From: Chloroflexota bacterium | GTDB lineage: Bacteria; Chloroflexota; Anaerolineae; SpSt-600 | NCBI GenBank assembly: GCA_011041825.1 | Contig: DRAO01000495.1 | Coordinates: forward strand, 1-10,279 | Direction of reading: 5' to 3' | DNA: 10,279 nt | Shown: piece after piece, positions 1,088 through 9,865 of the stretch | Layout: every line of letters begins with the position of its first letter | How positions within the stretch are numbered: position 1 is the first letter of the stretch | Made by a program: the position numbers and the translations under genes | The notes under the pieces: generated by a model | Told to the model about the DNA's origin: nothing | The model's database searches: none | The model's input: the letters and a program-made list of their open reading frames with translations, nothing else

Positions 1088-4000
1088 GTGCGCAAGAGGG
1101 AACTTTCACGCAGGTTCTTAATAACCTGTATGGGAGCTCTTGTCCTAACCTTTGGTTTGCTCATCCTTTGCGCCTGGGCAGGAGGCCCCCCGGAGAAGCC
1201 GATTGACCAGGATATAGCGAAGGGAAAATGGCTGGTCTTCGTATCCCCACCCCAGGAATTCCCCATTAACCCGGAGCCAGCCTTGGCTATCTCCCTCTTT
1301 GAGCGAAGCTGGAAGGAGAGACAGAGAGCTCTTGAGAGGCAATTGCGCCAGTTGAGAGGGGTGGGGGAAATCAGCGAGGTCAAAGGGGTTCCCTATGCCC
1401 TGAGCATCCGGACTGAACCTCAGAGTTTGGCCCTTATCTCCGGATTGCCCGGGGTGGAGGAGGTAGTGCCGGATACAAAAGCAGCCAGGCAGAGGCTAAA
1501 AGGGCTTCCTCTCCTCCAAAAGCAGCGAAGCGCTCTATCCCGAATCATCCCCCTTCAAGCCCCACTCACCCTTACCGTGGCCGTCCACCTCACCGAGATG
1601 AAAGTGGTCGGCGAGACGAGCCTTCCCACTCCAGTATTGATAACCATAGCCAGCTCCACAGGTTACATCAGCAAATTCTCAACCGTTATACCCATCCCCA
1701 TAGGTTCCAACAGATACATTTACGTTTTTAACTTTTGTTCTGGATGGATACCCAGAGAAACAATCCTCCCTCCAGGAGGTGTAATCACGGTATCCCAGGC
1801 AGGGAAGGTAATCACAGCCACCATACCCTCGCTGAGTGCCTTCGCCACGGCCGAGGATGACAGCATCTACGGGACAGGGCCTCTTTCTGCCACCGTAGAT
1901 GTATACTTGTACAAGGAAGACGAAGCAAGCTTCTTCGCAAGCTATACCACCACAGTAACCGCATCTGGGGCTTATACCTTGATGCCGGGTATAGACCTGG
2001 TAGGCGGCCATTACGGATATGCAGGGGTGACGGGGGAAAACGGGGTGCGCTTTTACGAGTCTTTTGTGGTGCCCTATGTTTCCCTCTGGTATGGGGGTGA
2101 TGTGCTCTCAGGTAAAGCCGTGCCTTACAGCTATATCAATGTGAGGGTGAAGGATAAACAAGGGCAAATTGGGTCAGGCTGGGGGGATGCCTATTCAGAC
2201 CCTTACGGGGCCTTTGCGTGCTACATCTCGCAAAATTACTATGGCGGTTGGTCCTTCGCCGAAGGCGACCTCATCACAGTCTCAGGTGGCGGGCAGGAGT
2301 TTTCCACTGTGGTGCCCTTGCTTACCTCAGAATTCCACAGAGATGAAGCTAAAGTTGACGGCTATGCTCCCCCCTCTTCGCCCTTGGAAATTTCCCTGCT
2401 GAAGCTCGATGGCTCAACGGCAGCTTTCACCACCACCTCCTCAGCCGATGGCTATTATGCCCTATCCCTGGCCCCGGTATCCCCCCAGGCAACGGAGATG
2501 GGCTTCGTCCGCTACCGCACCCCAGAAGGCCACCGCATCCATCGGGCCTTTGCCGTGCCGGGGATAATCGCTGAACTCAACGACTTCTACCTGAGAGGCT
2601 ACCTCTCCCAGGCCGCAGCACCTTTCACCTTAACCTTAACCGGTGCCAGCGGCAGGGTTAAAAGTATGTTCTTCGATACCAGCTCATACCAGGCCGACTT
2701 CGCCTTCTACCAGCGGTATTATTACTACGAAAACGTTAAGATATACCCCATCATTAAGGAAGGAGACAGGGTCTCAATTGAAGTGAGTGGCGAAGAGGAG
2801 ATAAGCCTTACCGTCCCCCACCTTACAATCAATGTTGACTCCTCTGTCAAAATCGCCTATGGTGAAGCCCCACCCAGCTCCCACCTTGAAGTCTGGTGGG
2901 GGGATTACGTGCGGGAAGTGACTGCCACCGCCACCGGTATCTATACGGCAGATTTCTCCAGCGAGATAGGAGAGGAACTTGCCTATGGCTCCATGAGCAC
3001 CTGGTATTTTGATGAACAAGGCAACTCCGTCTACATTGAGGCTTTTGCTCCCTATCTGAGTATAGCGATTGGCAGAAAGTACGTTTACACGCCATATTGC
3101 TCCAAGTTCTCCTGCCCGATGGCTGTCCTGCTCCTAGATGAGAATGGGCAATTAAAGGAACGGGCCCAAGCCCACTGCTGTGGGGTGGCTAATTTCTCCA
3201 ACCCCATACAGGCAGGGGATATACTGGTCCTGGAAATAGAAGGCCAACGGGTGCTCACCGCCACCGTTCCCTTTATCAGCGCCCGCTTCGACGAGGAAAA
3301 CGACCTAATCTATGGTCAAGGGCCCCCTTCATCAACCCTTTCCATATACGTTTATGTTTACGAACCTACTTACGAGTCCGTCTATAAAGCCAGCCAGGAA
3401 TGGCCTTACTATTACTACACTTATATCTATACGGTTGAGACCTCGGCTGGCGGATTCTACACCCTCCCCCTCTCCGGGACGCTGGATATAATCCCTGGTT
3501 CTAGGGGCTATGTCATCTACACTTCCCCCCACAATTATATGGTTGGCTACCCCTTTGGCGCCCCTATGGTATACGTCAACATCGGTGAGGAAGGGGTTGC
3601 TATGCTCCTGGAATCCTTTGCCCCCGTTAGTGTCACCTTGCTTGGGCCGGATGGAACCGAGAAATCACCGCCTCGCTCGGTTACCCCCTCTTATCTGGAA
3701 GCCTATGCCAGCTTCGATAAGCCCGTCGAACCAGGGGATACAATAGTGCTCACCACCGCTAGCAAGGTCATCTCAGTGCCCATCCCCCTGTTAACCGTCT
3801 CCCTGGACGGGGATGAGAACCTGATAAAGGGGATGGCTCCCCCTGAAGCTAGCCTGGACGTACTGTTATGTAGGCTCCAGATGGGGCAAGAGTGGAGATG
3901 TTTCCTCCGTTCGGCCACTGTCTCCTCCTCAGGGGGCTATTCATTGACCCTCCCTTCCGATGTTACGAGAGCCGATGTTATGTATTGGCCCCCTCGGGGA

Positions 4001-4645
4001 GACCAGATAAAGGTTACTGGCATTAAGCCCCACTTGGAGGTCAAACTGGGAGCGAGGACGATTTACGGCTCCTCCTTCCGCCTGGGTGAACCCGTAACCG
4101 TCACCCTCTACGCAAGTGATGGCAGCGTTAAAGGCCAGGGGACGGGGGAGTCCTCTGCCTACCACTCCTCATTCAACGTGTATCTGGACGGGATAACCCC
4201 CACCGTTGGAATCAGCGATGTAATAGAATTGAGGACGCCTTCAGGGGTTTACACCTTCGTTATACTGCATCTCACCGCTTATGGAGATGCAGTGGAGGAC
4301 GTGGTTCACGGCCAAGCTCCACCCCTCACCCTCGTCCGGGTGGAGGTCTCGGAAAAAAGCTGGCTCAGAGGCCCACACGCCCAAGGGGGATACTATTATT
4401 CTCCCCCTTACCGGATAGTTCAGGCTGATGCTAACGGCTTCTATGCTGCAGATTGGAGCGATGTGGGGCTTCCTATGGACGGCGAAGGGGAGGTAAAGTG
4501 GAGCAACAAACGTGGTGACCTCGTGGAAGTGGGGTTCACCGTGAAGGGTGCGGACTTCTACCTGCCTCTGGTGTTGAAACAGTGGCCTTACGAAAGGGAG
4601 ATGGTTATTTCTTCGACGGCAGCTTCGCTGCCGTCGAAGAAATAA
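1088..4645 (+). CDS. Large secreted modular repeat protein with N-terminal I9-like domain
   Basis: An 1185-residue exported protein of unknown function. It starts at GTG 1088 behind gggagga. Residues 1-31 form a signal peptide: a basic RKRELSRR head, a hydrophobic core and an AWA cleavage site; no good lipobox is present. Residues about 47-129 match the strand-helix-strand-helix-strand layout of subtilisin propeptide inhibitors (I9): KWLVFVS, a long charged helix, GVGEISEVKGVPYALSIRT, SLALISGLPGVEEVVPD. No protease domain follows. From about residue 231 six beta-rich modules recur, each marked by a G.APPSS.L.V-type anchor (about residues 264, 427, 594, 745, 917 and 1077), with an intervening AFAP-type half-module. 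Tyr and Trp are abundant. FYLPLVLK (1158-1164) near the end resembles the terminal motif of many Chloroflexota secreted proteins. The last dozen residues are encoded by a palindrome. Likely a surface or extracellular structural or adhesive protein; the function is inferred only from architecture. Confidence 0.9.
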   Translation: MRKRELSRRFLITCMGALVLTFGLLILCAWAGGPPEKPIDQDIAKGKWLVFVSPPQEFPINPEPALAISLFERSWKERQRALERQLRQLRGVGEISEVKGVPYALSIRTEPQSLALISGLPGVEEVVPDTKAARQRLKGLPLLQKQRSALSRIIPLQAPLTLTVAVHLTEMKVVGETSLPTPVLITIASSTGYISKFSTVIPIPIGSNRYIYVFNFCSGWIPRETILPPGGVITVSQAGKVITATIPSLSAFATAEDDSIYGTGPLSATVDVYLYKEDEASFFASYTTTVTASGAYTLMPGIDLVGGHYGYAGVTGENGVRFYESFVVPYVSLWYGGDVLSGKAVPYSYINVRVKDKQGQIGSGWGDAYSDPYGAFACYISQNYYGGWSFAEGDLITVSGGGQEFSTVVPLLTSEFHRDEAKVDGYAPPSSPLEISLLKLDGSTAAFTTTSSADGYYALSLAPVSPQATEMGFVRYRTPEGHRIHRAFAVPGIIAELNDFYLRGYLSQAAAPFTLTLTGASGRVKSMFFDTSSYQADFAFYQRYYYYENVKIYPIIKEGDRVSIEVSGEEEISLTVPHLTINVDSSVKIAYGEAPPSSHLEVWWGDYVREVTATATGIYTADFSSEIGEELAYGSMSTWYFDEQGNSVYIEAFAPYLSIAIGRKYVYTPYCSKFSCPMAVLLLDENGQLKERAQAHCCGVANFSNPIQAGDILVLEIEGQRVLTATVPFISARFDEENDLIYGQGPPSSTLSIYVYVYEPTYESVYKASQEWPYYYYTYIYTVETSAGGFYTLPLSGTLDIIPGSRGYVIYTSPHNYMVGYPFGAPMVYVNIGEEGVAMLLESFAPVSVTLLGPDGTEKSPPRSVTPSYLEAYASFDKPVEPGDTIVLTTASKVISVPIPLLTVSLDGDENLIKGMAPPEASLDVLLCRLQMGQEWRCFLRSATVSSSGGYSLTLPSDVTRADVMYWPPRGDQIKVTGIKPHLEVKLGARTIYGSSFRLGEPVTVTLYASDGSVKGQGTGESSAYHSSFNVYLDGITPTVGISDVIELRTPSGVYTFVILHLTAYGDAVEDVVHGQAPPLTLVRVEVSEKSWLRGPHAQGGYYYSPPYRIVQADANGFYAADWSDVGLPMDGEGEVKWSNKRGDLVEVGFTVKGADFYLPLVLKQWPYEREMVISSTAASLPSKK
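1778..4552 (+). repeat. Six degenerate protein repeat modules of about 150-172 residues
   Basis: Within the large secreted protein the pattern GD.I.V......TVP.LT, then D...I.G.APPSS.L.V, then a G.Y strand, then an F..P...V..G half-module, recurs six times. The APPSS-type anchors are at about residues 264, 427, 594, 745, 917 and 1077, giving intervals of 163, 167, 151, 172 and 160. The copies are clearly diverged at protein level and I see no long DNA identity between them, so the duplications look old. The composition suggests Ig-like or carboxypeptidase-regulatory-like beta sandwiches. Confidence 0.7.
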
Positions 4646-4717: not shown

Positions 4718-6421
4718 TTAGGCTGCCTTCTTCATCCTCCTGAGGGAAGCCCCCGCAGCGACAGCCGCCCCGCCCAGGATGATCACCACATAGAAGGGGA
4801 TGGGCTCCTCAGCGCCGGTGACCGGGAGTTCAGCCTGGACAGCCAGGTTGATGATGCGGCCTTCGACCTTGGGGCTCACCGGGGAATAAGTGGTGATGTA
4901 CTCCGCTACGGCGTCGTGGAGCAGCACGCCCGTCTCGAAGACGTTGGTCCCCTGCTTGAAGACCTCGTAGCCGTCGCCGCCGCCGAAGAGGAAGTTGTTG
5001 GTGACCACCCGGTAGGTGGCGTTGGGGTCAATGGGCACGTACTGCCCGCTGGCCTTATCCCATACTTCCACCTTGACGATGCGGGAACCGGCGGGCTTGC
5101 GGGGGTCAAAGGTGTAACGCAAGCCAGCCACCTGCGGGAAGCGGCCCTTGACATCCTCGATGCGGCTTACACCATTCTCCAGGGCCTCGATAATCTGGGC
5201 GCCAGTGAGGTCAAGGTCCACCAAGGTGTTCCCGAAGGGCAAAATCTCCAGAATCTTGCCCATCGAGATGTCGCCAGCGGGGGCGCTGGCCCGGATGCCG
5301 CCGCCGTTCTGGATGGCAATCTGGGTGTTGTCGTCGGCGGTTTTCCACAGCATAGCGTCGCAGATGAGGTTGCCCAGGTTGGTCTCCATCGTGCGGACGT
5401 GCTCTTTCTCGCCGTCCAAATCCACCGCCGACTGACCGATGATGGTGTTCTTGAGCTCCTCAATGGGGCCAGCGAGTTCAGCCAGCTTGGCATCGAACTC
5501 GGGGTCGGAGGCGATGCTGGCGTTCACGAAGATGGGCTGGCCGCTGTATTCGGTGACCTTGCCCTCGGCATCGAAGGTCACGTTCAGGCGGCCAAGGTAG
5601 CTGCCCCACTGATAGGCGTGGACGATGAGGACTGGTTCACCGCTGGGGGAATTGACCACGGTGGGATAAGGCCCCTTAGCGCCTTCCATATCGCCCAGGA
5701 GGGTGTGGGAGTGCCCGCCGACGATGATGTCTATCCCGGCCACGGAAGCGGCGAGTTCCTTGTCCTCATTGTAACCGAGGTGGGTGAGGGCGATTATCTT
5801 ATTGATGCCCTGGGACTCGAGCTCGGCAACAACCTGCTTGGCTGTCTCGATGGGGTCTTCAACTTCCACGCCTTCGCCGACGTTGGAGATAATCTTAACG
5901 TCTTCGGTGGTGAGCCCGAAGATGGCCACCTTCTCGCCTCCGATTTCCTTGATGACATAAGGCTTAATCTTGCCCCGGAGCAGGTCAGAGCCAGAGCAAT
6001 CCAGGTTGGCTGAGAGGACCGGGAAGTTAGCGCCGTCAATGAACTTGGCAAGCGGCTCCTGCCCTTTGTCAAACTCATGGTTCCCGACGGCCATCGCATC
6101 GTAGCCCATCTTGTTCATAAACCACAGGTCGGCCTGGCCCAGGTACTGGTTGAAGTAGAGGGTTCCCTGGAAAACATCGCCAGCGTCCAGCAGGAGCACG
6201 TTGCCACCCTCAGCTCGAATCTGCTTGATGAGGGTATACCGCCGGGAGACACCGCCCTGTTCCTCGCCTTTGAAGGGGGTGAAAGGCTCAAGGTGAGCGT
6301 GGGTATCATTGGTGTGCAAGATGGTGAGGGTAATAGGAGCTTGGGCAAGCGCCTGAGGGACCAGGGCTAGAAGGAGCGTGATAGTGAGAATAATTGGTAG
6401 CAAGTATCTCTTACCCTTCAT
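4718..6421 (-). CDS. LPXTG-anchored 5'-nucleotidase / UshA-type metallophosphoesterase
   Basis: A 567-residue exported enzyme of the 5'-nucleotidase/2',3'-cyclic phosphodiesterase family, expected to hydrolyse extracellular nucleotides for phosphate or nucleoside salvage. Residues 1-26 form a signal peptide ending ALA. The catalytic metallophosphatase domain shows all dimetal motifs: NDTH (38-41), GD (81-82), GNHEFD (113-118), THLG (213-216) and GGHSH (235-239). The C-terminal substrate domain has NGGGIR (372-377) and FGGGDGYEVF (479-488). LPVTG at 532-536, a hydrophobic stretch and a final RRMKK form a sortase sorting signal, so the mature enzyme should be covalently attached to the cell wall. 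The ATG is preceded by aaggaggagg five bases away. It begins 37 bases after the OsmC-like gene on the same strand and could share its transcript, with a palindrome between them. Confidence 0.95.
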   Translation of the reverse strand: MKGKRYLLPIILTITLLLALVPQALAQAPITLTILHTNDTHAHLEPFTPFKGEEQGGVSRRYTLIKQIRAEGGNVLLLDAGDVFQGTLYFNQYLGQADLWFMNKMGYDAMAVGNHEFDKGQEPLAKFIDGANFPVLSANLDCSGSDLLRGKIKPYVIKEIGGEKVAIFGLTTEDVKIISNVGEGVEVEDPIETAKQVVAELESQGINKIIALTHLGYNEDKELAASVAGIDIIVGGHSHTLLGDMEGAKGPYPTVVNSPSGEPVLIVHAYQWGSYLGRLNVTFDAEGKVTEYSGQPIFVNASIASDPEFDAKLAELAGPIEELKNTIIGQSAVDLDGEKEHVRTMETNLGNLICDAMLWKTADDNTQIAIQNGGGIRASAPAGDISMGKILEILPFGNTLVDLDLTGAQIIEALENGVSRIEDVKGRFPQVAGLRYTFDPRKPAGSRIVKVEVWDKASGQYVPIDPNATYRVVTNNFLFGGGDGYEVFKQGTNVFETGVLLHDAVAEYITTYSPVSPKVEGRIINLAVQAELPVTGAEEPIPFYVVIILGGAAVAAGASLRRMKKAA

Positions 6422-6446: not shown

Positions 6447-6462
6447 GTAGCGATATCGCTAC
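6447..6462. promoter_or_regulatory. 16-bp perfect palindrome between the OsmC-like and nucleotidase genes
   Basis: The sequence gtagcgatatcgctac is its own reverse complement. It overlaps the TAG stop of the OsmC-like gene (6459-6461) and lies about 25 bases upstream of the nucleotidase start codon. Perfect dyads of this size are typical of operators for dimeric regulators. As RNA it could form only a six-pair hairpin with an AUAU loop and no U-tract, so a terminator is less likely. The regulator is unknown and I see no convincing promoter around it. Confidence 0.45.
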
Positions 6463-6836
6463 TTTAACCTGTACTCCAGTTTTATTGGCCCTCTTAGGAA
6501 TTTCCCTACCTCGCAATGCCTGGCCGAGTTAAACAATATCTTTACTTCCCGCCCGGTCAACCCTTCATCTAACCACAAGCTGACCTGCACAGTTCCTCCC
6601 TTCTCCTCCTGCTCTATTTCCACCTCTACCTCTACTTTGCCCAGCTCAATCTCTTTAACAGCGGCAACTGCCGCCAGGGTCAGGATTATTCAAGAGGCGA
6701 GCGCTGCTGCCACCAATTCTACCGGGCAGAACTTCTCCCGCTCCTCTTTTGTCCCTTGTTCCACCACGAAAGTACGCCCTCCAGAACGTATGAGGGCTTT
6801 ATCCGGGGCAACGTAGGAAGCGCTTACCTTAACCAT
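6459..6836 (-). CDS. OsmC-like peroxiredoxin, predicted selenoprotein (in-frame TGA read as selenocysteine)
   Basis: A 125-residue OsmC/Ohr-superfamily protein that becomes visible only if one TGA is read through. From ATG 6836 it begins MVKVSASYVAPDKALIRSGG and continues FCPVELVAAALAS-U-IILTLAAVAA (U at residue 49). It then has the central strands and LTGREVKILFNSARHCEVGKFLRGPIKLEY, ending at TAG 6461-6459. OsmC proteins have their peroxidatic Cys in a P.ELLLAALASC motif and a resolving Cys in an A..HC.V...L motif. The TGA sits exactly at the first and Cys108 is the second. Cys37 is an extra cysteine. Both halves are intact in one frame, with no other lesion. OsmC-like proteins are an established prokaryotic selenoprotein family. 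The start codon has only a weak upstream gggtg; a GTG three codons earlier is possible. It lies 20 bases after lplA. The alternative is a nonsense pseudogene, which is less likely given the position of the TGA and the hairpin after it. Confidence 0.9.
6661..6689 (-). promoter_or_regulatory. Candidate bacterial SECIS hairpin just downstream of the Sec codon
   Basis: Reading the minus strand after the TGA, 20 bases separate the codon from a four-base loop AGUU closed by the five-pair stem GCGGC/GCCGC (6674-6670 with 6665-6661). Two G-U pairs can extend the stem below (6675/6660 and 6676/6659), and a distal AAUC/GAUU pairing is possible. Bacterial SECIS elements have a short upper stem, a small apical loop with a G in one of its first two positions, and roughly 16-37 bases from UGA to the loop. 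All of these are met, with the G second in the loop. The hairpin lies inside the coding region, as usual in bacteria. Confidence 0.7.
6690..6692 (-). other. Predicted selenocysteine codon (TGA, residue 49 of the OsmC-like protein)
   Basis: The minus-strand TGA occupies the position of the conserved catalytic cysteine in the AALASC motif of OsmC proteins. Replacement of a redox-active Cys by TGA, with Cys in homologues, is the standard signature of a selenoprotein. A general code change is ruled out locally because other genes here, including 420-1049 and lplA, end in TGA. Confidence 0.85.
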
Positions 6837-6856: not shown

Positions 6857-7912
6857 TCAGGCTGCTTCGCCCGCCAGTATCATCCGGAAGTCCCCGGGCG
6901 TTATGCCGGGGGCTTCCACCCCTCGGGAAGCGAAGAACCGCTCGATGGTGGCTTCCACATCCTCCAAGGCCACGCCCTCCAAGGCCATTTCCAATTCCTC
7001 CAGCGCCTCAGAGGGGTAGAAGAAGAAATCGCCCGAGAGGGAAACATCGTAGATGCGGCCTTCCTCAAGCCTGTAAACAGCCCTGATAAGGCCACCAGGG
7101 GCTTTGTAGACTTTGTGCTGAACCTCAACCCCCTCCCGAATCTTCACCCGGTCGGCAGGGGCTTTCTTCCTCCCTCCGGCCAGAAGCCATTCTTCGCTGA
7201 AGAGCCACCGGGATACCTCATCGGTTTTAGCCCGCAGTTCCGGGTCAACTTCGTTCACCCTTTCGAGGGAGCCCAGGATGCCCTCAAACTTGGCCGCCAG
7301 GAGCTTCCGCAGCTCATCAAAGGGAGGCGCATAGCCCAATTCCCGCTTTATGGTCGAGAGGTTTTCCTTCAGGGTTTTGTAAATTTTGTCCCGGAACTTC
7401 TCATCGGGCACTTTGAGCACCCGTACCATCGTCTCATAATCGAAGTCCACGATGAGATTGCCCACGAAGACGATGAAATCGCCTATCTCAGCAACACCGT
7501 TGCCGGAGATTTTGCGCCCTTCGGCAGTGATGATGTCGTTGACAGGTTTGTAGCGGGCGTCAATCCCCAATTCCCTGTAAGCGGCAATGGGGGCTTGGAG
7601 AAAGCGCTCGTAGAATTCATCCTTCCTAGGGGGAGCTAAGGGGTTATCCCTGTGGATTATAAGCTGATAGAAAATCTGGTTGCCATCCAGGTAAACGGCT
7701 CCACCCCCCACTTCCCTGCGCATCACAGGGGTGTGGTGTTGACGGCAGTAATCCAAGTCCACGTCGTATCTGGCATCCTGGTGGCGCCCGATGGAAACAT
7801 AAGGAGAAGAGGGGGCTAGAATAAACAGCCCCTCCCGTCCTATCCGGGGAAGGGTATGATAAAGGGCCTGGGAATCCTGCCAGGATACATAGCCCAGGTC
7901 ATAGAGTTTCAT
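6857..7912 (-). CDS. lplA: Lipoate-protein ligase A family protein
   Basis: A 351-residue cytoplasmic enzyme that activates lipoate with ATP and attaches it to a lysine of lipoyl domains (E2 subunits, GcvH or related carriers). The ligase domain has the RREVGGGAVY signature (65-74) that binds the lipoyl-AMP intermediate and the catalytic-lysine motif GRKISGNG (132-139, Lys134). A linker and a C-terminal accessory domain follow (about 250-345), including YKAPGGLIRA, so ligase and accessory domain are in one chain, as in E. coli LplA. The ATG has aaggag eight bases upstream and a near-consensus promoter about 37-65 bases upstream. The stop is 20 bases before the OsmC-like selenoprotein gene, suggesting translational linkage. 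An octanoyltransferase role (LipM-like) is the main alternative within this fold, but the accessory domain favours LplA. Confidence 0.93.
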   Translation of the reverse strand: MKLYDLGYVSWQDSQALYHTLPRIGREGLFILAPSSPYVSIGRHQDARYDVDLDYCRQHHTPVMRREVGGGAVYLDGNQIFYQLIIHRDNPLAPPRKDEFYERFLQAPIAAYRELGIDARYKPVNDIITAEGRKISGNGVAEIGDFIVFVGNLIVDFDYETMVRVLKVPDEKFRDKIYKTLKENLSTIKRELGYAPPFDELRKLLAAKFEGILGSLERVNEVDPELRAKTDEVSRWLFSEEWLLAGGRKKAPADRVKIREGVEVQHKVYKAPGGLIRAVYRLEEGRIYDVSLSGDFFFYPSEALEELEMALEGVALEDVEATIERFFASRGVEAPGITPGDFRMILAGEAA

Positions 7913-8016: not shown

Positions 8017-9255
8017 CTATCCCTTCATAATGGCATCGGTCATCCGGGCCACCCGCACCATCTCTTTTACATCGTGCACCCGAACAATGTTGGCTCCCTT
8101 GGCGATGCCCAGGGCTACGGTGGCCGCTGTGCCTTCCATCCTCTCCTGTGGGGGCAAATCCAGCACATAGCCGATTACCGATTTGCGAGAAGAGCCCAGG
8201 AGGATGGGCCTGCCGAGCACCTTGAGCTCCCCCAGACGGCGCAATATCTCCAGGTTTTGCTCCACCGTCTTACCAAAGCCGATGCCCGGGTCAACGATGA
8301 TTTTCTCCCATTCAACCCCGGCTTTGAGGGCTATGTCAATGCTGTAGCGCAGCTCCCGGATGATGTCAGCCATCAGGTCTTCATACTCGATGCCCACATA
8401 GCGCCCCCCAAGCCTCTCTTCCTGGACGGCGTTCTTAGGCCGGGAGCGGTTATGCATCACCACCACGGGCACTTCGTATTCGGCTACCACCTCAGCCATC
8501 TCAGGGTCCATCCGCAAGCCCCACACATCGTTAACCAGGCTGGCCCCGGCTTCGAGGGCCTCCCGTGCCACCCTTGCCTTATAGGTGTCAATGGAGATGG
8601 GCACATCAACCTGCCCGGCCAGGCGCTCCAGGACAGGCATCACCCGCCGGAGTTCTTCATCTTCGGAGATAGGCGCCGAGCCGGGGCGGGTGGACTCCCC
8701 CCCGATGTCCAGGATGTCGGCTCCCTCTTCCACAAAGCGCATCGCCTGGGCCAAAGCCCTCTCCACATCCCCGGCCAACCCATCGCCGGAGAAGGAGTCA
8801 GGGGTAACGTTGATGATGCCCATTACGTAGGTGCGCTTATCCCACTCGAAGGTCTTGCCCCCTATCTGCATCACGCCCAGAGTCTGCCCTTCATACCTTT
8901 TGATGGCTTCCTCAACCTCCCTGGCGATGGCTTGCAAGCTCTCAAGGGGTTGACGACGCAGGTTAGCGATAAGCTGCTGGCAATGGTGGAGGGTGCCTAA
9001 GATGATGAGGTCCGTTGTCTCCTGGGTGCCAAAGTAAGCATCAGAAGCCAGGGCAGCATCACCGCCTTGGGAGAGCATCTCCCGCTTGATGATGTTGGCC
9101 GCATTGCGGTCAACTCCCTCCAGTTTGATGGCCCGCAACATCCCTTTGGGAGCCATCGTTTCAATTCCTTTGGGATCAGCGTCCAATTTCCGCATCTCTT
9201 CACGGAGCTGGTCAAGGGTTTCATACTCCAGGATACGGGTATTGAAACCGGCCAT
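8017..9255 (-). CDS. folP: Dihydropteroate synthase with N-terminal extension domain
   Basis: A 412-residue enzyme that condenses 6-hydroxymethyl-dihydropterin pyrophosphate with p-aminobenzoate in folate synthesis. The TIM-barrel domain (about 140-412) carries every DHPS signature: NVTPDSFS (149-156), DIGGESTRPG (183-192), SIDTYK (221-226), NDVWG (242-246), VMHN (266-269), DPGIGFGK (322-329), GSSRKS (354-359) and RVHD (392-395). Typical bacterial DHPS is about 270-290 residues. Here roughly 135 residues precede the barrel, rich in helix (DQLREEMRKL, RQPLESLQAIAREVEEAIKRY) and including MLRAIKLEGVDRNAANIIKREM. Similar extended DHPS forms are, to my knowledge, found in some thermophiles and Chloroflexota. 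I start at ATG 9255, not 9270, because ggagggaagg sits directly in front of it. The gene follows folE closely, so the two are probably one transcript. Confidence 0.95.
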   Translation of the reverse strand: MAGFNTRILEYETLDQLREEMRKLDADPKGIETMAPKGMLRAIKLEGVDRNAANIIKREMLSQGGDAALASDAYFGTQETTDLIILGTLHHCQQLIANLRRQPLESLQAIAREVEEAIKRYEGQTLGVMQIGGKTFEWDKRTYVMGIINVTPDSFSGDGLAGDVERALAQAMRFVEEGADILDIGGESTRPGSAPISEDEELRRVMPVLERLAGQVDVPISIDTYKARVAREALEAGASLVNDVWGLRMDPEMAEVVAEYEVPVVVMHNRSRPKNAVQEERLGGRYVGIEYEDLMADIIRELRYSIDIALKAGVEWEKIIVDPGIGFGKTVEQNLEILRRLGELKVLGRPILLGSSRKSVIGYVLDLPPQERMEGTAATVALGIAKGANIVRVHDVKEMVRVARMTDAIMKG

Positions 9256-9258
9256 AAA

Positions 9259-9268
9259 CCTTCCCTCC
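9259..9268 (-). promoter_or_regulatory. Ribosome-binding site that sets the folP start at 9255
   Basis: The minus strand reads ggagggaagg, with GGAGG eight bases in front of the ATG at 9255. An in-frame ATG at 9270 lies upstream of this site and has no comparable signal of its own. The internal ATG is therefore the more likely start, shortening the protein by five residues. Confidence 0.65.
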
Positions 9269-9277
9269 ATCCATTTG

Positions 9278-9865
9278 CTACTTCATATTCCTGTTCCTAA
9301 CCAGGCTCAGGAATTCCTGTCGGGTTGCCAGATTCCGCCGGAAGAGGCCCCTGTTGGCCGAGGTTACCACAATGGTGCCGGGCTTTTTGATGCCCCGCAT
9401 CGTCATACAGGTATGGACGGCTTCGACCACAACCCCTACCCCCTTTGGCCGCAATCCCTCCATAATCACGTCGGCAATCTGACCGGTGAGGCGTTCCTGA
9501 AGTTGGGGGCGGCGGGCAAGTATCTCCACCACCCGGGCCAGTTTGGATATGCCAACGATGCGCCCTTCGGGGATGTAACCGATGTGAGCTACACCGTGGA
9601 AGGGGAGGAAGTGGTGCTCACACATAGAATAAAAGGGGATGTCACGCAGGATAATCATCTCCTGGTGCTTTTCTTCCTCAAACCCCACCTTGAGTACTTC
9701 CAAGGGGTCTTGATAAAGCCCTTCGAAAAGCTCCGCATACATCTCGGCAATACGACGGGGGGTATCCAGCAACCCCTCCCTGGTGGGGTCTTCACCTATG
9801 GCCTCAATTATCTCCTTAACGGCCCTCTCAATGCGAGCTTTATCAATGCAGGTTTGAGATTCCAT
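9278..9865 (-). CDS. folE: GTP cyclohydrolase I (type IA)
   Basis: A 195-residue enzyme that converts GTP to 7,8-dihydroneopterin triphosphate, the first step of tetrahydrofolate synthesis. It has the usual length and all key elements: [15 protein letters not shown] near the N-terminus, the zinc-binding CEHH (Cys82, His85) with the second cysteine in HTCMTMRG (Cys153), and the C-terminal [13 protein letters not shown]. Because Cys82, His85 and Cys153 are all present, this is the zinc-dependent form. The ATG at 9865 follows gtagaggaag. The stop is 22 bases before the chosen folP start, so translational coupling is likely. No folB or folK lies in the window. Confidence 0.97.

Follow-up and report, generated by a model that had tools for sequence, protein, structure and literature searches.

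An OsmC-like reading frame in the genome of a Chloroflexota bacterium (Anaerolineae; SpSt-600) is interrupted by one TGA codon, and the question raised by this locus is whether that codon ends a protein or encodes selenocysteine (Sec) within a complete one, and what such a protein would do. The window, by which we mean the whole stretch of DNA analysed, covers positions 1-10,279 of contig DRAO01000495.1 in assembly GCA_011041825.1. We use the label OsmC-U both for the OsmC-domain protein with a UGA codon that is encoded here and for its family. The features on which the argument turns are as follows.

6459..6836, minus strand: OsmC-U gene, 125 aa with one UGA read through; stop codon TAG at 6461-6459; an ATG start is assumed.
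6690..6692, minus strand: in-frame TGA at codon 49, for which selenocysteine is predicted; it occupies the column of the first catalytic Cys.
6726..6728, minus strand: codon of Cys37; 18 of 19 Sec loci encode Cys here, the exception being L038 with Ser, and so does the Cys homologue found in genome G002.
6513..6515, minus strand: codon of Cys108, aligned to the second (resolving) Cys of OsmC/Ohr.
6660..6675, minus strand: SECIS-like hairpin GGCGGC-AGTT-GCCGCT, spanning columns 18-33 when the T of the TGA is column 1.
6857..7912, minus strand: lplA, lipoate-protein ligase, 351 aa, LplA-B_cat 131.4 bits; its stop lies 20 bp before the OsmC-U start.

The frame runs from its initial M through ELVAAALAS-U-IILTLAAV and RHCEVGKFLRG to a final K followed by TAG, with exactly one TGA, and its product scores 51.9 bits against the Pfam OsmC profile PF02566, above the gathering score of 27.5. 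The original prediction of a minus-strand OsmC-like frame broken by the TGA alone and ending normally is thus borne out. AlphaFold modelled the protein, with Sec replaced by Cys, at a mean pLDDT of 90.2, and the best structural matches of the model are OsmC/Ohr proteins. In a sequence alignment to the solved chain 2pn2 (E 3.6e-5), U49 and C108 fall on the first and second Cys, respectively, and a weak alignment to the solved chain 2bjo (E 0.094) places them in the same way, which agrees with the earlier assignment of the TGA to the peroxidatic Cys and of the resolving Cys to RHCEVGKFLRG. Both columns are invariant across the 14 family members aligned, the former holding Sec or Cys and the latter Cys. 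Cys37 has no Cys counterpart in either 2pn2 or 2bjo.

The OsmC-U family was found in 14 of 100 related genomes, a set that includes the genome of the window; 13 of these 14 carry exactly one in-frame TGA, always in the same column, and the remaining one (G002) carries none and has Cys there. G002 and G001 are the two genomes that belong to the same taxonomic family as the window's genome. Scanning the GTDB contigs of 84,980 species gave 15 loci, comprising 14 with the UGA and the Cys locus of G002, and four of the 14 derive from Deltaproteobacteria (one Desulfosarcina, one Desulfobacteraceae, and two labelled 'Deltaproteobacteria bacterium'). A class-wide search of 396 genomes detected the family in 16 and added G144 and G125, both TGA-bearing. 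After removal of records from the same contig we retained 19 Sec loci (15 from Anaerolineae and four from Deltaproteobacteria), which are not phylogenetically independent (G003/G072, G013/G048, and G029/G062 share genera) and come largely from draft assemblies.

Alignment of homologues at the TGA column, which had been proposed as a check, returned either Sec or Cys; Cys is present in G002, whose homologue has no TGA, and in the database proteins P0002-P0004. A tree built from 22 proteins places the Cys forms at three points, and the window's Sec protein clusters with two Cys proteins (support 0.99), which implies that the family has seen exchanges between Sec and Cys. In all six pairs tested, dN was lower than dS both before and after the TGA, as estimated from fixed blocks (40 and 71 codons) assumed to contain no gaps. 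Decay in close relatives had been named as a sign against a functional gene; the frame is open around the TGA in these relatives, but the record is not uniform, as L060 of G125 is discontinuous upstream of the CP motif. This break, upstream of position 1546, may reflect either faulty assembly or a copy in decay. Judged from the alignments, the conservation of OsmC-U is more than chance, and the family is predicted to be one of selenoproteins by the usual mark of bacterial selenoproteins, a conserved in-frame UGA with Cys homologues in its column.

Directly after the UGA, columns 18-23 can pair with columns 28-33, and over the 19 Sec loci 91.2% of the 114 cells are paired. The covariation score of this hairpin is 0.383 versus 0.107 in shuffles, and none of 500 shuffles reached it. 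Two other measures showed no clear excess, namely the count of pairs in which both partners had changed (3 versus 2.8; 385 of 500 shuffles as high) and that of further pair types (7 versus 5.0; 32 of 500 as high). When the partners were slid the score did not rise above 0.110, and at an offset of -3, where 79.8% of cells still pair, it was only 0.039. RNAalifold, unprompted, gives the same hairpin. The strongest point in its favour is pair 21-30. Both columns are fourfold-degenerate third positions (of Ala or Ser codons and of Ala codons, respectively) in all 19 Sec sequences, so protein coding does not tie them, and they are paired in every one (G-C in nine, U-A in eight, A-U in one, and U-G in one); in 200,000 permutations, which ignore relatedness, pairing was never as frequent. 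The loop has an invariant G25 and U26, and in the one Cys gene available, that of G002, both positions of pair 21-30 are T. The hairpin supports the presence of a predicted bacterial SECIS element.

The source bin comprises 2,290,119 bases in 512 contigs and is 84.69% complete. It encodes a tRNA-Sec (72.6 bits; ARAGORN anticodon TCA) and selA (598 bits), the latter expected given that selA lies above the cut-off in 87 of the 100 relatives, together with a selB truncated by a contig edge to its C-terminal half, which retains both SelB winged-helix domains and scores below the whole-protein cut-off. The search for Sec genes called for in the original prediction therefore succeeded in these three respects and not in a fourth, as selD was not found in this bin of roughly 85% completeness. 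A lone selD candidate was rejected because it is closer to HypE. A search of 15 genomes gave a selD above the cut-off in 12, including both same-family genomes. The source genome also holds an hdrA fragment with an in-frame TGA (DCSI-U-ILGPKM; G000:C115:3-1343, locus L102) that is cut by a contig edge and probably represents a second selenoprotein.

How the family is stored in databases bears on whether Sec is involved at all. A profile search of a set of 5.8 billion proteins gave 409 proteins at E <=0.001 among 7,994 scored candidates. Among the 120 homologues listed, 117 are 79-101 aa long and start with M-[VTAI]-L-T right after the UGA position, a placement based on the residue that follows the UGA in loci whose DNA was examined; the other three (P0002-P0004) are full-length proteins with Cys. 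That 117 of 120 predicted proteins begin past the UGA would fit a scenario in which the TGA is a true stop, an error, or a nonsense mutation, leaving halves that are separate or dead, and so would the missing selD in the source bin. Such a scenario must nonetheless contend with an identical TGA at 19 loci in two bacterial groups, with dN below dS on either side of it, with a hairpin that covaries at synonymous sites, and with the Sec machinery present in the genome. The start codons point the same way: ATG (Met) directly follows the TGA in 12 of 18 Sec loci tabulated, whereas in the window this codon is ATA, which is no start codon, so a separate second half would have no start there. We consider a reading without Sec highly improbable, and insertion of Sec at UGA49 of OsmC-U very likely on this comparative evidence.

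We compared OsmC-U with described relatives. Twenty-two proteins (P0001, P0002, and two further sets of ten) were tested against NF041052, the NCBIfam model for OsmC-related (seleno)proteins; the best score was 38.9 bits relative to a cut-off of 95, and two of the 22 had no match at E 0.01. OsmC-U itself scores 20.7 bits with the Ohr model TIGR03561 (cut-off 88.85) and 25.5 bits with the OsmC model TIGR03562 (cut-off 85.8). OsmC-like selenoproteins with the motif UxxT are reported from Sargasso Sea and GOS data in passages of PMC1088965 and PMC2398784. OsmC-U has in common with them the OsmC domain, Sec at the catalytic-Cys position, and the existence of Cys homologues, but it lacks UxxT, having Thr at U+4 in the 14 aligned members and in six further Sec loci, and it differs as well in the extra Cys37 and in its lipoate and Hdr gene neighbours. 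These sequence characters indicate that the OsmC-U family is distinct from described Se-OsmC.

A second point of comparison is provided by the lipoyl-dependent peroxidases of the Ohr/OsmC type, including the Trichomonas OsmC that works with H and L proteins. Passages of PMC4486171 describe regeneration of Ohr by lipoylated proteins, and passages of PMC5962072 place the catalytic Arg at Arg19 in Ohr and in a Gly-rich loop in OsmC. OsmC-U shares with these enzymes the fold, the two redox positions, and a proposed lipoyl donor; it differs in having Sec for the first Cys, in falling below the Ohr and OsmC subfamily cut-offs, and in that its activity is a prediction. The supposed electron source also differs, being Hdr proteins for OsmC-U and dihydrolipoamide dehydrogenase for the known peroxidases.

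The gene neighbourhood, which formed no part of the original prediction, motivates this proposed donor. Using HMMs built from locus clusters, we scanned 20 loci (19 Sec and one Cys) of 3.5 to 20 kb each. On the same strand and within 4.3 kb, lplA occurs in 13 of the 19 Sec loci; it lies just upstream in nine of the 15 Anaerolineae and downstream in all four Deltaproteobacteria, two of which are weak, domain-level matches. The window's LplA is 63-64% identical to the LplA of both same-family genomes, compared with 51-56% to ten others. A gene for a GcvH-like carrier lies within about 2.1 kb in seven of the 19 Sec loci, and ligase or carrier is found in 15. Hdr-like proteins (CCG and 4Fe-4S domains) are encoded within 10 kb in eight of 19, and an hdrA with its own single TGA is located near OsmC-U in G086 (L067:5274-7241) and in G049 (L069, 12433-13026 with 10465-12414). 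None of the three neighbours was found in G014, in G125, on the 3.5-kb contig of G013, or at the Cys locus of G002. Both G002 and G001 contain a gene run in the order carrier, lplA, hdrC-like, hdrB-like, and hdrA with a TGA, for which Pfam assignments come from G002 only.

The carrier also tracks the family across genomes. Using an alignment built from carriers near OsmC-U, matches of at least 160 bits, a line drawn after the list had been seen (the next lower score being 133), occur in 27 of the 100 relatives: 12 of the 14 with the OsmC family versus 15 of the 86 without it (Fisher 1.1e-6, relatedness ignored). The only match in the source bin scores 125 bits, in the range of a second, GcvH-like group, so a carrier of this type was not found there, which counts against the lipoyl-donor reading. 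The lipoyl Lys is kept in all six aligned carriers, and as each of three carriers tested passes the NCBI GcvH subfamily cut-off, the carriers may be ordinary H proteins. In joining Hdr-like proteins, a GcvH-like carrier, and a ligase, the relatives resemble the sHdr-LbpA sulfur oxidation system treated in parts of PMC6067878 and PMC10332631. There, LbpA is described as having two strictly conserved Cys that GcvH lacks, with some archaea excepted, whereas the six aligned carriers here have none (four) or one (two); OsmC-U and an hdrA with an in-frame UGA are further differences. Sec-containing HdrA is itself a described selenoprotein according to the parts of PMC1794560 that treat it, and the UGA-bearing hdrA of the source genome, like those beside OsmC-U in G049 and G086, is a neighbour and not OsmC-U.

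The frequent proximity of OsmC-U to lipoate-attachment genes suggests that its electrons come from a lipoyl-carrying protein, and on these sequence grounds we consider a lipoyl donor likely. We also find it probable, with somewhat less confidence, that OsmC-U is as a whole a selenocysteine-containing OsmC-family reductase whose electrons would likely come from a lipoylated GcvH-like carrier. In the sequence of events we propose, tRNA-Sec and SelB would read UGA49 as Sec, guided by the downstream hairpin, for which the covariation is observed and the decoding is presumed. The U49 selenol would then attack an oxidised substrate, for which an organic hydroperoxide is the most likely candidate, and the product would be resolved by C108, by analogy with the OsmC/Ohr mechanism. 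LplA would lipoylate the GcvH-like carrier, the dihydrolipoyl arm of which would reduce the U49-C108 bond, as suggested by domains and by gene order in relatives. Finally, the lipoyl disulfide would be re-reduced by iron-sulfur and flavin proteins of the Hdr type, whose genes lie close to those for carrier and ligase in relatives. The step to a functional Sec peroxidase, as first proposed, would follow from what is known of OsmC/Ohr enzymes, and we lean slightly toward peroxide as the main substrate. A relay from Hdr through lipoyl to selenol that reduces peroxides or related substrates is, we infer, the best reading; we found no description of a selenium-lipoyl electron relay of this Hdr/GcvH/OsmC-U kind in the PMC literature. 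A more specific version is tentative and rather doubtful: HdrABC with Sec-HdrA may use the carrier's lipoyl disulfide as a heterodisulfide-like substrate, so that the reduced carrier feeds OsmC-U and two selenoproteins link flavin-based electron transfer in anaerobes to the reduction of peroxides or persulfides.

Two other accounts accept Sec and differ in what surrounds it. The protein could be a conventional peroxidase that draws on thioredoxin or a different thiol system, with the lipoate and Hdr genes being neighbours for other reasons. Three of the 19 Sec loci indeed have none of the three neighbours, and parts of PMC4486171 report that the Ohr of C. glutamicum is also reducible by Trx/TrxR; the same parts of that study, however, give lipoylated proteins as the prime Ohr donors, and 13 of 19 loci have lplA close to OsmC-U, an association seen in Anaerolineae as well as in Deltaproteobacteria and in differing arrangements. 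We regard this account as unlikely. About equally so, or marginally more, is one in which OsmC-U is no peroxidase and instead handles thiols or persulfides in an Hdr-lipoyl sulfur pathway resembling sHdr-LbpA. Its appeal lies in the Hdr-like proteins near OsmC-U in eight of 19 loci, in the single run of carrier, LplA, HdrC-like, HdrB-like, and HdrA genes in G002 that is repeated in identical order in G001, and in the requirement of Hdr-like sulfur oxidation for LbpA stated in parts of PMC6067878, while the Cys content of the six aligned carriers, none or one rather than the two of LbpA, argues against it.

If the Sec reading is correct, a selenoprotein family of uncultured Anaerolineae and Deltaproteobacteria is mostly stored without the half that carries its active site, and the selenoproteomes of both groups are undercounted. 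Should a path from HdrA through lipoyl to OsmC-U exist, the deposition of OsmC-U as half a protein would explain why it was missed. The neighbours suggest a role for lipoate ligases and GcvH-like lipoyl carriers encoded alongside Hdr proteins, and they make the electron donor of Sec-OsmC directly testable.

The remainder of the window contains several other genes. Two genes on the strand of lplA and upstream of it, one of the pterin-binding (folP) type and one for GTP cyclohydrolase I, fall within 8017-9865 (minus); on the downstream side of OsmC-U, 4718-6421 holds a gene of the 5'-nucleotidase type; and 1088-4645 (plus) encodes a predicted protein of 1185 aa with no Pfam match at E 0.01.
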